In this document: piece by piece, positions 21,280-26,350 of the stretch
How the letters are laid out: every line of letters starts with the position of its first letter
How positions within the stretch are numbered: the first letter of the stretch is position 1
From: Myxococcus sp.
GTDB taxonomy: Bacteria > Myxococcota > Myxococcia > Myxococcales > Myxococcaceae
Assembly (NCBI GenBank): GCA_014879945.1
Contig: JACSRE010000184.1
Coordinates: forward strand, 1 to 46,229
Direction: 5' to 3'
DNA length: 46,229 nt
Program-made: the position numbers and the translations under genes
Notes under the pieces: generated by a model
Databases searched by the model: none
Seen by the model: only the letters and a program-made list of their open reading frames with translations
What the model was told of the DNA's origin: nothing

Positions 21280-22365
21280 ATGAGCGTTCAGGAAAGCGAC
21301 ATTCTCAAGGCCCTCTCGACGGTCATGGACCCCGACCTGAACACCGACGTCGTGAAGGCCGGCATGGTGAAGAACCTCCGCGTCGACGGCGGCAAGGTGA
21401 GCGTGACCATCGAGCTCACGACGCCGGCGTGCCCGATGAAAGAGAAGATCAAGGGTGACGCCGAGGCCGCGCTGAAGGCGGTGGCGGGGCTCACCGAGCT
21501 CAAGCTCGAGCTGACCGCCAGGACGCGCGCCGGGCCGATGGGGGCGTCGAAGGAGTCGCTGCTCCCCGGCGTGAAGAACGTGGTGCTGGTGGGCGCGGGG
21601 AAGGGCGGCGTCGGCAAGAGCACCGTCGCGCTCAACCTCGCCTGCGCCCTCGCCAAGCACGGCGCCCAGGTCGGCCTCCTCGACGCCGACTTCTACGGCC
21701 CCTCGATTCCGTTGATGACGGGCATCAAGCGCAAGCCCGTCAGCCGTGACGGCAAGAACCTCGACCCCCTCGAGGCGCATGGCCTCAAGGTGATGTCGAT
21801 CGGCTTCCTCATCGAGGCCGATCAGGCGCTCATCTGGCGCGGGCCGATGCTGCAGGGCGCGCTGATGCAGCTGGTGCGCGACGTGAACTGGGGCGAGCTC
21901 GACTACCTCGTGCTCGATCTGCCGCCGGGCACCGGCGACGTGCCGCTCACCATCGCCCAGCAGGTGCGCAGCTCGGGCGCGGTGCTGGTCACCACGCCCC
22001 AGGACGTCGCGCTCGCCGACGTCGTTCGCGCCAAGCAGATGTTCGACAAGCTCCACGTGCCGGTGCTGGGCATCGTCGAGAACATGAACCAGTTCATCTG
22101 CCCGCACTGCAACAAGGGCACGCACATCTTCGACGTGGGCGGCGGCCGGCGCGCGGCCGAGATGATGGACGTCGCGTTCCTCGGCGAGGTGCCGCTCGAT
22201 CTGAAGATCCGCCAGGGCGGAGATCGCGGCATTCCCGTCACCGTCGGCTACCCCGAGAGCGACGAGACGAAGGCGTTCATGGGCATCGCCGGCAAGGTGG
22301 CCGCGCGCATCTCGCAAGAGAACATCACCCGCGCGACCGCGGTCGTGAAGCTCCCGACGCTGTAG
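21280..22365 (+). CDS. Mrp/ApbC-family iron-sulfur cluster carrier P-loop ATPase
   Basis: A 361-residue cytosolic protein that binds and transfers Fe-S clusters. The N-terminal 85 residues form a MIP18/DUF59 domain (ILKALSTVMDPDLNTDVV). The deviant Walker A is GKGGVGKST, and DADFYGPSIP, DLPPGTGDV and TTPQDVALADV are ParA/Mrp signatures. The cluster-binding CPHC occurs in NMNQFICPHCNKG. Start ATG 21280 has GGAG six bases upstream, one of the clearer ribosome binding sites in the window. The gene abuts the stop of the convergent fusion gene with no spacer. The 81 bases to the divergent membrane protein gene must hold both promoters. Confidence 0.93.
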   Translation: MSVQESDILKALSTVMDPDLNTDVVKAGMVKNLRVDGGKVSVTIELTTPACPMKEKIKGDAEAALKAVAGLTELKLELTARTRAGPMGASKESLLPGVKNVVLVGAGKGGVGKSTVALNLACALAKHGAQVGLLDADFYGPSIPLMTGIKRKPVSRDGKNLDPLEAHGLKVMSIGFLIEADQALIWRGPMLQGALMQLVRDVNWGELDYLVLDLPPGTGDVPLTIAQQVRSSGAVLVTTPQDVALADVVRAKQMFDKLHVPVLGIVENMNQFICPHCNKGTHIFDVGGGRRAAEMMDVAFLGEVPLDLKIRQGGDRGIPVTVGYPESDETKAFMGIAGKVAARISQENITRATAVVKLPTL

Positions 22366-24036
22366 TCAGGGGGCGCGCACGAACGCCGCGCCGACGCTCG
22401 CGGCCAACAGCTGGTGGGCCTCGGTGGTGCCGACGACGGTGCAGCGGTGCGGCGCCAGCCCGGCCTGGTGACACGCCTCGAGCAGCAGCCCGGGGAGCGG
22501 GGGCCGGCACCAGCAGCTCGGCGGTCCCCCTCCGTGTGGGCAGAGCAACGCCGTCGCCGACAAGCGGGCCGCCTGGGCCTCGACGGCCGCGCGCTCGGTC
22601 TGGGTCCACGCGAAGACGAAGGTGGGCTCGGTGGCGGGCGCGCAGCTCGAAGCGCACTCGAGCGCGATGAAGCGGCCGGCGGCGCCTTCGCGCGGTGCGC
22701 GATGGAAGGGGCGCGTCTCGAGCCAGTCGAAGCCCTCTTTCCGCACCGGCGCCTCGAGCTCGCGCACCGTGCGGAAGTGGGACAGCGGCGTCAGCCCGGT
22801 GTTGTCCCGCTGCTGCTTGAGCTCCTCGGGAGCGAGCAGCCGGCCGTGCGCCGCCAGCATGCGCGAGATGACGTTCACCTGCGCCTCGTGGAGCGGCACG
22901 TCGAGCCACACGCCCCGCACCTTCGCGCCGCGCTGCTTCGCCGTCTCGATCACCGCCGCCCGGGACGCGCGCGTGGTGTACGTGTTGTCGAGCACGACGT
23001 GGGTGGTGCCCGACGCCAGCGCGCGGCCCATCGCCTGCGCGACGTCCTTCAGCGTGCCGCCCAGTTGATCGCGGTTGAAGCGCTGAAACCCGTCGGCGAC
23101 GTAGGCGTCGACGAGGCGTGACTTCCCCGCGCCCTGAACGCCCATCAGCATCACCACCTCACCGCGCGGCCGGGCCTCGAGGGGCGCGACCACCGCGGGC
23201 GGCCCGAGCGCAGGGAAGGCCTCGCGCAGCCGGGCGCGCTCGCCGGCGTCGAAGGTGACCGTGGCGGCGCGCGCGGCGTCGGTGATCGTCTCGGGCCGCC
23301 GGGCGCCGGGGATCACGCAGAGGCGCTCGTCGAGCTCGAGCAGGGCCGCCAGGGCGATCACCGCCGGGGTGACGCCCTTCGCGCGCGCCAGCTCGCCCAA
23401 CAGCGCCGACGCGTCCAGCCTCCCCAGCCGCCGGGGCCCGCCCAGGGGCGTGTGGGCCATCACCTGCAGCCCGCGCTCCAGGCACCGCCCCAGCACGCCC
23501 GAGCGCCGCGCGCGATCGTCGAAGATCGACAGCCCCTGCTGCACGACGGAGATGGGGGCCAGGGCGAGCGCCTCGTCGAGCAGGCGCACCGTGACGTTCG
23601 AGAGGCCGATGGCCCTCGCCAACCCTCGCGCGAGCACCTCGTGGAGCGCGCGCACCGAGGTGGCCCAGGGCACCGCCGGGTCGGGCGCGTGGAGGAGGAA
23701 CAGATCCGCCGGCCGCCCCAGCGCCTCGACGCTCCGCGCCGCGTCTTCGAGGATGGACCTCGCGCGCCCGTCAGGCCGCCACGCGCCGCCGGGCCGACGC
23801 AGGCCGCCCTTGGTGACGACGATCGCTCCACCACCGCGAGCGTGCGTCGCGAGGGCCCTGGCGATCAGCCGCTCGTTCTCTCCCAGGGCGGCGCCGGCGC
23901 AGTAGGCCGTCGCGGTGTCGAAGAGGGTGACGCCAGCGTCGAGCGCGGCGTGGACCACCGCCACGGCCTCCGCCTCTGGCCGTGGCTCGGTCGAGAGCCG
24001 CATGCAGCCGAGGCCGACGCGGGGCAGGGCGGGCAT
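22366..24036 (-). CDS. Aldo/keto reductase fused to PNKP-like kinase and degenerate HAD domain
   Basis: A 556-residue three-part protein (numbering here counts an optional GTG codon one residue upstream). Residues 1-270 are an aldo/keto reductase with the full tetrad Asp41, Tyr46, Lys77, His117 and GLSNVT. Residues about 292-447 resemble the kinase domain of polynucleotide kinase-phosphatase: P-loop GVQGAGKS (300-307), FNRDQLGG, VVLDNTYTTRASR and EAPVRKEGFDWLE. Residues about 455-557 resemble a GmhB/PNKP-type HAD phosphatase. Zinc ligands Cys500, His502, Cys509 and Cys511 are kept, but the catalytic DxD is replaced (IALECASS) and the VGDxxxD motif reads VVGTTEAH, so phosphatase activity is probably lost. 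It lies 9 bases after the HD-GYP regulator gene, in one operon. Confidence 0.82.
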   Translation of the reverse strand: MPALPRVGLGCMRLSTEPRPEAEAVAVVHAALDAGVTLFDTATAYCAGAALGENERLIARALATHARGGGAIVVTKGGLRRPGGAWRPDGRARSILEDAARSVEALGRPADLFLLHAPDPAVPWATSVRALHEVLARGLARAIGLSNVTVRLLDEALALAPISVVQQGLSIFDDRARRSGVLGRCLERGLQVMAHTPLGGPRRLGRLDASALLGELARAKGVTPAVIALAALLELDERLCVIPGARRPETITDAARAATVTFDAGERARLREAFPALGPPAVVAPLEARPRGEVVMLMGVQGAGKSRLVDAYVADGFQRFNRDQLGGTLKDVAQAMGRALASGTTHVVLDNTYTTRASRAAVIETAKQRGAKVRGVWLDVPLHEAQVNVISRMLAAHGRLLAPEELKQQRDNTGLTPLSHFRTVRELEAPVRKEGFDWLETRPFHRAPREGAAGRFIALECASSCAPATEPTFVFAWTQTERAAVEAQAARLSATALLCPHGGGPPSCWCRPPLPGLLLEACHQAGLAPHRCTVVGTTEAHQLLAASVGAAFVRAP

Positions 24037-24045
24037 CACGCTCCG

Positions 24046-25176
24046 TCAGGTCGCGGGCTTCTTCTCGGCGGTCTGGCCGCCCATCAGCGGTGAGGGCGCC
24101 ACCAGGTACTCGCCCCAGCGGCCCTTCTCCTTCTCTTCGAGCTCGCGAATGCGGGCGCGAATGTCGAGCCACTCCTGCGGGTCGATCGAGAGGAACACCT
24201 TCACCAGGTGTGGGTCGAGCTGGGTGCCGCCGAGGCGGCCGATCTCGGCGAACGCGACCTCGGGCGCCGCACCCTTGCGGTACGGGCGATCGGAGGTGAT
24301 CGCGTCGAAGGTGTCGGCGATGCAGAAGCAGCGCGCGCCGATCACGATCTCTTCACCCTTGAGGCCGCGCGGGTAGCCGCGGCCGTCGTAGCGCTCCTGG
24401 TGCTGGTAGACGATCTTCGCCGACTCCTGCAGGTAGGGAATGTTCGCGAGCATGCGGTAGCCCATCTCGGCGTGCTTGCGCATCTCGACCCACTCCTCGG
24501 GCGTGAGCGGGCCGGGCTTGAGCAAGATGGAGTCGCGCACGCCGATCTTCCCGATGTCGTGCAGCAGCGCGCCCTGCTCGATCTGCAGGAGCATGTCGCC
24601 CGCCAGGCCCGCGCCCTCGGCGATGCGCCGGGTGAACTGCGCCACCCGCCACGAGTGCCACTGCGTCTCGGTGTCGCGGTAGTCGAGGGCGCGCACCATG
24701 CCCTCGAGCAGGCCGTTGGTGCGCTCGATGACCTGCTGCTCCAGCACGGCGTTCAGCGACGCGAGGCGCTCGTTGCGCTCGGCGAGCTCCCGGGCCAGCC
24801 GGCGGTTCTCTTTGACCAGCCGGTAGTAGTCCACCGCCTGCTGAATGCCGAACTTCAGGTCCTGCAGCTGCCACGGCTTGCCGATGATGCGAAAGACCTC
24901 GCCGCGGTTGACGGCGTCGATGGCGACCTTGAAGTCGTTCGCGGCGGTGATCATCATGCGCACCGCGTCGGGTCGCTTGGCCCGCAGCACGCCCAGGAGC
25001 TCGATGCCGTTGAGGTTCGGCATCATGAAGTCCGTCAGCACCAGGTCGAAGTCGGTCTCTTGCGCGGCCGCCAGCGGATCGTTGTGCACGATGACCGGGT
25101 GCCCCATCGACTGAAGCACGCGCGTCAACACGTCGGTGATCGAAGGGTCGTCGTCGACCAGCAGAAAGCGTTCCAT
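24046..25176 (-). CDS. Response regulator with HD-GYP phosphodiesterase domain
   Basis: A 376-residue two-domain regulator. Residues 1-120 are a receiver with acidic pocket Asp8/Asp9, phospho-acceptor Asp49, Thr77 and Lys100. A coiled-coil linker (about 118-150) follows. The HD-GYP domain has HDIGKIG (His206/Asp207) and GRGYP (Gly247-Pro249), so it should hydrolyse cyclic di-GMP when activated. A basic/Pro tail ends the protein. No partner histidine kinase lies in the window. Start is ATG 25176; codons further upstream are Arg/Pro-rich and unlikely. A minus-strand TAGACT at 25215-25220 is a candidate -10, with GAGGAA near the start as ribosome binding site. The fusion gene follows in the same operon. 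Confidence 0.92.
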   Translation of the reverse strand: MERFLLVDDDPSITDVLTRVLQSMGHPVIVHNDPLAAAQETDFDLVLTDFMMPNLNGIELLGVLRAKRPDAVRMMITAANDFKVAIDAVNRGEVFRIIGKPWQLQDLKFGIQQAVDYYRLVKENRRLARELAERNERLASLNAVLEQQVIERTNGLLEGMVRALDYRDTETQWHSWRVAQFTRRIAEGAGLAGDMLLQIEQGALLHDIGKIGVRDSILLKPGPLTPEEWVEMRKHAEMGYRMLANIPYLQESAKIVYQHQERYDGRGYPRGLKGEEIVIGARCFCIADTFDAITSDRPYRKGAAPEVAFAEIGRLGGTQLDPHLVKVFLSIDPQEWLDIRARIRELEEKEKGRWGEYLVAPSPLMGGQTAEKKPAT

Positions 25177-25309
25177 GTCGTTGAACTTCCTCGGCAATCT
25201 CGGGCGGGGAGCGCAGTCTACCCTGTGCCTCGGGTTCAAGCGGCGAAAGTGTCGGGGCAACGCTTTTCTGGCCGGTAGCGGCGGGCGTCGTCTACCATCG
25301 GGCGACCTT
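25177..25309. other. Divergent promoter region between HD-GYP regulator and DapB-like gene
   Basis: 133 bases. Minus-strand TAGACT (25215-25220) would give the HD-GYP operon a leader of roughly 35 bases. Plus-strand TACCAT (25293-25298) ends 12 bases before the ATG at 25310. No strong inverted repeat was found. Confidence 0.35.
25293..25298 (+). promoter_or_regulatory. Candidate -10 hexamer, near-leaderless
   Basis: TACCAT ends 12 bases before the ATG at 25310; no -35 match at normal spacing. Confidence 0.25.
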
Positions 25310-26350
25310 ATGCCCAGAGGCACCACGCGCGGGAAGCCGGCTGCACCTTCGACGCCTTCTTCTGCAGGGCGAGTGCCCGTGATCGTGATGGGCCTGGGCG
25401 CCATCGGGCAGGAGATCGCGAGGGCGGCCCTCGCCAACGACGAGGTGGAGCTGATCGGGGTCGTCGACTCGAGCGCGAGGATCGCCGGGCGACCGCTGTC
25501 GGAGCTGCTCGGTCAGGCGGCCGCGTCGATGAAGGTGCACGCGGCCCTGGGCCCCGCGCTCGGCCGTCGCAAGGGCGTGGTGCTGCTCCACGCGACCGGC
25601 TCACGGCTGCCCCAGGTGAAGGATCAGCTGCTCGAGGCCATGGCCCTGGGCCTGCACGTGGTGTCTACCTGCGAGGAGCTCGCGTTCCCCTGGTTCAACC
25701 ACCCCGAGATCGCCGACAAGCTCGAGGCCGCGGCGCAGAAGGCGGGCGTCTCGATCGTCGGCACCGGCGTCAACCCCGGCTTCGTGCTCGACCGGCTGGT
25801 CGCGACGCTGGGGCAGGTGTGCGGGGCCGTCAGCCACGCGAAGGTCTCGCGCACCGTCGATGCCCGGACCCGTCGCGAGGCGCTGCAGCGCAAGGTCGGG
25901 GCGGGCCTGTCGGAAGACGAGTTCTTCTCGCTCGTCGATCAAGGCCGCATCGGCCACGTCGGCCTGGTCGAGTCGGCGGCCCTGTGCGCGCTCGGGCTGG
26001 GCCTCGACTGTGACGACTACGAAGAGGAGCTCACGCCCGTCTTCGCCGACGAAGACATTCCCGGAGGGGCGTTCCTGGTGAAGAAGGGCCAGGTCGCGGG
26101 CATGCACCAGGTGGCCGTCGCCCTCGACGACGGCCAGGAGCGCGTGCGCCTCGAGCTCACCATCGCGCTCGGCGCCGAAGAGCCCGGCGACGTCATCGAG
26201 ATCGACGCCGACCCGAAGGTGCGGGTGTTGATCCCCGGTGGGTTGCCGGGCGATCGCGCGACCGCGCACCTGGTGGTGAACGCTGCCCCCCGTATGACTG
26301 CCTCGCAGCCCGGGTTGTTGACCGTGCTCGAGCTCCCCGCCGGTCGCTGA
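25310..26350 (+). CDS. DapB-like NAD(P)-dependent dehydrogenase (2,4-diaminopentanoate dehydrogenase-like)
   Basis: A 346-residue soluble oxidoreductase. The Rossmann motif is VIVMGLGAIGQEIA (residues 28-33 hold the glycines), preceded by a 20-residue disordered Ser/Pro-rich tail. HVVSTCEELAFPWFNHPE and GTGVNPGFVLDRL are hallmarks of proteins annotated as dihydrodipicolinate reductase N-terminal or 2,4-diaminopentanoate dehydrogenase family. The C-terminal half lacks DapB's substrate site, so lysine synthesis is unlikely. The next genes encode a HadA/HadB-like dehydratase pair and an acyl-CoA dehydrogenase, hinting at amino- or hydroxy-acid catabolism via CoA thioesters. I start at ATG 25310; the open frame to 25136 overlaps the divergent promoter. 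Confidence 0.72.
   Translation: MPRGTTRGKPAAPSTPSSAGRVPVIVMGLGAIGQEIARAALANDEVELIGVVDSSARIAGRPLSELLGQAAASMKVHAALGPALGRRKGVVLLHATGSRLPQVKDQLLEAMALGLHVVSTCEELAFPWFNHPEIADKLEAAAQKAGVSIVGTGVNPGFVLDRLVATLGQVCGAVSHAKVSRTVDARTRREALQRKVGAGLSEDEFFSLVDQGRIGHVGLVESAALCALGLGLDCDDYEEELTPVFADEDIPGGAFLVKKGQVAGMHQVAVALDDGQERVRLELTIALGAEEPGDVIEIDADPKVRVLIPGGLPGDRATAHLVVNAAPRMTASQPGLLTVLELPAGR

Follow-up and report, generated by a model that had tools for sequence, protein, structure and literature searches.

Results

The window, by which we mean the whole stretch of 46,229 nt from Myxococcus sp. analysed here (its genome is labelled G000), carries a gene that encodes an aldo/keto reductase (AKR), a PNKP-type kinase and a degenerate HAD domain in a single protein (Table 1). 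A first-pass annotation had described such a fusion of three domains in one frame without stating the strand, and we find one intact open reading frame of 557 amino acids with no internal stop, whose alternative ATG start agrees with the span 22366–24036 given there. Domain searches of the full protein matched the AKR in Pfam, the kinase as AAA_33/PNK-3'Pase and a HisB/GmhB-type HAD in NCBIfam. Since the same three domains recur in the same order in 12 further genomes, and the frame is thus kept in independent genomes, a frameshift or an assembly error joining separate genes is ruled out.

Table 1. Positions of the three-domain gene, its parts and its neighbours in the window
Feature	Position	Strand	Details
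Three-domain gene	22366..24039	-	GTG start 24039, alternative ATG 24036; stop 22366-22368
AKR domain	23188..24039	-	residues 1-284; tetrad D41/Y46/K77/H117
PNKP-type P-loop kinase domain	22705..23166	-	residues 292-445; Walker A 300-307, NRD 322-324, DNT 351-353, R357, R360
Degenerate zinc-HAD (GmhB/PNKP-like pseudo-phosphatase)	22369..22704	-	residues 446-557
Zinc-loop motif CPHGGGPPSCWC	22507..22542	-	residues 500-511, retained
Response regulator with HD-GYP-type output	24046..25437	-	upstream neighbour; Pfam Response_reg + HD_5
Mrp/NUBPL-type Fe-S carrier gene	21289..22365 (start approximate)	+	PF10609 1e-98, PF01883 3e-23; neighbour, not part of the fusion

The start codon of the fusion gene lies directly 3' of the stop of the same-strand response-regulator/HD-GYP gene, only a few base pairs away, and the two are perhaps co-transcribed, while the end of the convergent Mrp-type gene abuts the stop of the fusion. 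A conserved operon was rejected, the response-regulator/HD-GYP gene being the sole kept neighbour and this within the genus only; in the synteny comparison the surroundings of the gene change from genus to genus and no neighbour conserved beyond the genus was found. Comparison of the neighbourhoods across carriers likewise revealed no conserved repair gene beside the myxobacterial fusion and no conserved sugar-metabolism gene near it. The PADLOC models of anti-phage defence gave no match to the fusion protein at E up to 1.

The N-terminal part is matched by PF00248 over residues 8–273 (4e-43, profile positions 2–288 of 291). All four residues of the tetrad Asp41/Tyr46/Lys77/His117, from which the domain had been called intact, are present and, together with many further AKR positions, invariant in 13 homologues. 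In the AlphaFold model the N-terminal domain fits AKRs with Z up to 32, and the value of about 28 obtained against Kv-beta is comparable to that for all AKRs. The best NCBIfam model for this part is PRK10376 (YdbC-type oxidoreductase) at 2e-19, below the cut-off of the model. AKR13-type reductases and YdbC/PdxI share the fold and the tetrad, but are standalone enzymes without a kinase. We additionally observed a match at 5e-27 between the AKR domain and phrog_8735, a PHROG family without an assigned function, from which it follows that a related AKR family is carried by phages. The linker between AKR and kinase varies in length among the aligned homologues.

For the central domain, the quoted motifs GVQGAGKS (300–307), FNRDQLGG (321–328) and DNTYTTRASR (351–360) could be located. 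Across 14 aligned sequences, Walker A, NRD and DNT show little or no variation, and further arginines are conserved. AAA_33 matches residues 295–412 (3.5e-11, Pfam) and the PNK-3'Pase model TIGR01663 covers kinase residues 293–397 (1e-12, NCBIfam). In profile comparison, the match to mammalian PNKP (2.6e-20) spans the whole domain and takes in the C-terminal 'EPPxxDEGFxxLExxPF' element; T4 PNK is matched at 4e-5 to 2e-4. By sequence similarity and motifs, the domain is thus of the PNKP subfamily, in agreement with the PNKP resemblance given in the first-pass annotation, and it is predicted to be active. It is only mildly basic.

In the C-terminal domain the putative zinc ligands C500, H502, C509 and C511 (CPH...CWC) are invariant in 13 homologues, and the surrounding PP..CWC..P.PG is nearly so. 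HisB/GmhB-type HAD models match weakly (1e-4 to 1e-3) over residues ~485–552 in NCBIfam, and a profile of the fusion HAD tails finds a GmhB-type HAD as its closest match (2e-5). The loss of the DxD and VGDxxxD aspartates that had been noted is confirmed and extends further: in comparison with intact phage relatives, none of motif I DxD, motif II S/TNQ, the lysine of CRKP (motif III) or motif IV GDxxxD is kept. The catalytic motifs are gone in all 13 aligned members, and L061 alone retains a remnant of motif I (FVDAD). Because a fold search with the full model was filled by AKRs, the last 115 residues were folded separately (pLDDT 90, pTM 0.84). HAD folds were matched by this model at a Foldseek probability close to 1; the VIA-align Z values were 8.4–9.9, with GmhB (9.1), the T4 PNK phosphatase (8.9) and mouse PNKP (8.5) among them. 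The last ~110 residues are thus HAD-like, as the first-pass annotation had it. In sequence and model, the domain therefore keeps the fold and the zinc loop and is devoid of the residues of the HAD mechanism. With DxD, S/TNQ, K and GDxxxD all lost, we do not class the fusion protein as a bifunctional PNKP. Nei–Gojobori dN/dS values between congeners are 0.16–0.40 for the AKR, 0.10–0.30 for the kinase and 0.17–0.46 for the HAD, so that purifying selection acts on each of the three domains, including the dead HAD, for which it is mildly relaxed.

The whole-protein AlphaFold model (mean pLDDT 89, pTM 0.55) indicates that the individual domains are well modelled, while their mutual packing is uncertain.

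The survey for the same order of domains yielded the 12 further genomes at 40–78% identity, all of them Myxococcota and falling into two distant groups of the phylum. Full-length homologues are present in 5/6 other genomes of the genus of the window (68–78% identity), and elsewhere in G024, G018, G090–G092 (another genus) and G162 and G163 (a distant family of the phylum). G010 probably carries the three-domain protein split over two contigs, since two of its contigs end in an AKR fragment and in a kinase+HAD fragment, respectively. In the 195 Myxococcota genomes scanned, an AKR was attached to every full-length kinase+HAD match, and no separate full-length kinase+HAD without AKR was found. 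When set against the closest standalone AKRs that were sampled, the fused AKRs group as a single clade with a support of 100/99, which, taken together with the distribution, points to a single ancient fusion event followed by losses or transfers. Coverage beyond Myxococcota consisted of one close-relative scan of genome contigs and of phage, plasmid and viral collections. A mobile origin of the window gene was rejected: no plasmid record spans the whole protein and none the kinase+HAD part, and among the matches listed, those on plasmids cover the AKR portion only.

The closest relatives of the kinase+HAD part are kinase+zinc-HAD proteins of ~310 amino acids from large phages (LR756511, LR756500 and IMG/VR), which match PF08645 PNK3P and AAA_33. 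A viral scan with the LR756511 protein alone gave no match, while an alignment-based scan recovered 20 full-length loci in IMG/VR. These proteins share the kinase, the domain order and the zinc loop with the fusion and can be aligned with it end to end. However, they have no AKR, and their HAD motifs DxD, S/TNQ, RKP and GDxxxD, all of which are lost in the bacterial fusion, are intact. Loss of the catalytic residues is therefore specific to, and common among, the bacterial fusions. The surroundings of the phage kinase+HAD genes contained no AKR, and an RNA_ligase (PF09414) gene lies within 4 kb in 5/20 distinct phage loci, 4 of these 5 being Pfam-confirmed.

Several further features of the phage loci were observed. 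One of the 20 IMG/VR loci (L099:3950-4963) kept the catalytic motifs and lost the zinc ligands, the reverse of the pattern in the bacterial fusion. In LR756511, the next large gene downstream of kinase+HAD (L075:6898-8577) resembles an NAD synthetase of the glutamine-hydrolysing kind. Four other phage relatives have a CinA-like gene nearby, and a protein with WGR and PARP catalytic domains lies near kinase+HAD at L088:6273-7559 and L081:7443-8717.

RNA ligases were also compared between genomes with and without the fusion. In two genera, the 9 genomes that carry the fusion possess PF09414 ligases at E<1e-9, in contrast to G001, G089 and G021, which lack the fusion; the genome of the window has weaker RNA_ligase-like genes only. 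A DraRnl-like ligase (PHA02142 OB fold and RNA_ligase) at 71–100% identity occurs in G002, G004, G005, G006, G090, G091 and G092, all of them fusion carriers, and its loci (L111, L115, L116, L117, L119 and L120) were seen in fusion-bearing genomes only. However, this ligase is missing from G000 and G003, a relative of ~50% identity is frequent among genomes that lack the fusion, and a second ligase family is patchily distributed, rendering the co-occurrence only suggestive. It comes from two genera and is unclear across the family once lineage is counted in.

Two further architectures were seen in the genome of the window. An RNA ligase (PF09414) and an aminoglycoside-phosphotransferase-like APH domain (PF01636) are joined in one 538-aa frame (L112:2456-4069; G000:C14, about 22285-22731), with a related ligase match in the congener G006 (C64). 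A WGR domain and an ATP-dependent-ligase-like domain are combined at L113:2171-3316 (G000:C190), as well as at L118 and L121, with similar proteins in G091 and G006.

Discussion

In this study, we analysed a three-domain protein of Myxococcota with respect to sequence, predicted structure, distribution and surroundings. The first-pass annotation knew of no described system with such an architecture, and we likewise found no description of it in the open-access literature that we searched for fusions of AKR and kinase and for domain architectures in RNA repair. Mammalian PNKP has a kinase of the same subfamily and also an HAD phosphatase partner; its phosphatase is, however, active and precedes the kinase, and an FHA domain is found where the fusion has the AKR. 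The likeness to phage T4 Pnkp that had been noted holds for the kinase-then-HAD order and for a similar HAD fold. Beyond this the comparison does not extend, since the kinase is much nearer to mammalian PNKP, and the HAD of the fusion is of the zinc-containing GmhB/HisB kind, while that of T4 Pnkp is active and without a zinc loop; an AKR is missing in T4 Pnkp as well. GmhB/HisB-N phosphatases in turn share the zinc loop CxH...CxC and the fold, but possess the catalytic aspartates that are missing in the fusion. That a polynucleotide kinase of bacteria can be joined to a second catalytic domain is known from DRB0098 of Deinococcus radiodurans, for which 5'-kinase activity was shown; it carries an HD domain in contrast to the AKR and HAD found here, and a ligase-like gene belongs to the same operon (PMC1997131).

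We tentatively propose, at a probability of roughly 0.4, that the fusion is a PNKP-like end-healing enzyme in which the phosphatase has decayed and a reductase was gained. Using NADPH, the AKR would reduce the aldehyde or ketone group of a sugar, and the kinase would phosphorylate, from ATP, the resulting hydroxyl or an existing 5'-OH, while the pseudo-HAD may bind or position the substrate or stabilise the kinase and would remove no phosphate. The substrate may be a nucleic-acid end or fragment, since the nearest relatives are large-phage pairs of kinase and active HAD, some of them located near RNA ligase genes. These RNA ligase genes make the role at nucleic-acid ends suggested previously plausible, although no repair gene is conserved beside the myxobacterial gene. 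Consistent with end healing are the invariance of the AKR tetrad and of the kinase motifs across 13 divergent members, the match to mammalian PNKP, the phage pairs, the ligases, the AKR attached to every full-length kinase+HAD of Myxococcota, the single clade of fused AKRs and the dN/dS values. Besides the missing repair gene, the lack of a DraRnl-like ligase in the genome of the window and the mildly basic character of the kinase count against it, as do the AAA_33 kinases that act on small molecules.

Reduction followed by phosphorylation appears to be the likeliest logic of the fusion. Conversion of a 5'-aldehyde end to a 5'-OH and further to a phosphorylated end would make chemical sense of it, the particular substrate being a guess. 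In its most specific form, this would amount to direct-reversal end repair, in which an oxidised sugar at the end of a DNA or RNA break, e.g. a 5'-aldehyde, is reduced to the 5'-hydroxyl by the AKR, the kinase forms a ligatable 5'-phosphate and the dead HAD serves as an end-binding module. We consider this form improbable, and we are not aware of any established NADPH-dependent reductase that is dedicated to the ends of nucleic acids.

A close rival of end healing, possible albeit doubtful, is a reductase/kinase acting on small molecules. Here, the AKR would reduce a free aldehyde or sugar (an aldose to a polyol, or a vitamin aldehyde), the kinase would phosphorylate the alcohol, and the zinc HAD, derived from a sugar-phosphate phosphatase, would now only bind the product. 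AKRs usually act on free small molecules, and the YdbC-type PRK10376 as best NCBIfam model fits this, as does the closeness of the HAD profile to GmhB, a sugar-bisphosphate phosphatase, and the fact that repair genes do not adjoin the fusion. Yet the kinase groups with PNKP and the phage kinase+PNK3P proteins and not with known sugar kinases, and no conserved sugar-metabolism gene is found nearby. It is the phage relatives that place end healing slightly ahead of a free-metabolite substrate.

A role of the AKR as a redox sensor is unlikely. AKR folds do serve as NADPH-sensing regulatory subunits, and the domain model matches Kv-beta, as it does all AKRs, so that the NADPH/NADP state could control the kinase with the turnover of the AKR itself being of little matter; the full tetrad and the many AKR positions invariant in 13 divergent members are, however, as expected of a working enzyme. 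That two activities without a common substrate were joined for co-expression only is a poor prospect, as every full-length member retains the fusion despite deep divergence and a kinase+HAD on its own was not seen in the phylum, although fusion alone does not prove a shared pathway, the linker between AKR and kinase varies in length and the packing of the domains is uncertain.

Conclusions

The protein combines redox chemistry and an enzyme of the polynucleotide-kinase type within a single conserved chain, and its divergent homologues, together with the phage relatives with intact HAD motifs, constitute ready controls. If the reductase prepares the substrate of the kinase, the fusion would represent either a new metabolite pathway or a means of repairing nucleic-acid ends that were oxidised, and additionally a pseudo-phosphatase that was retained with a new role.
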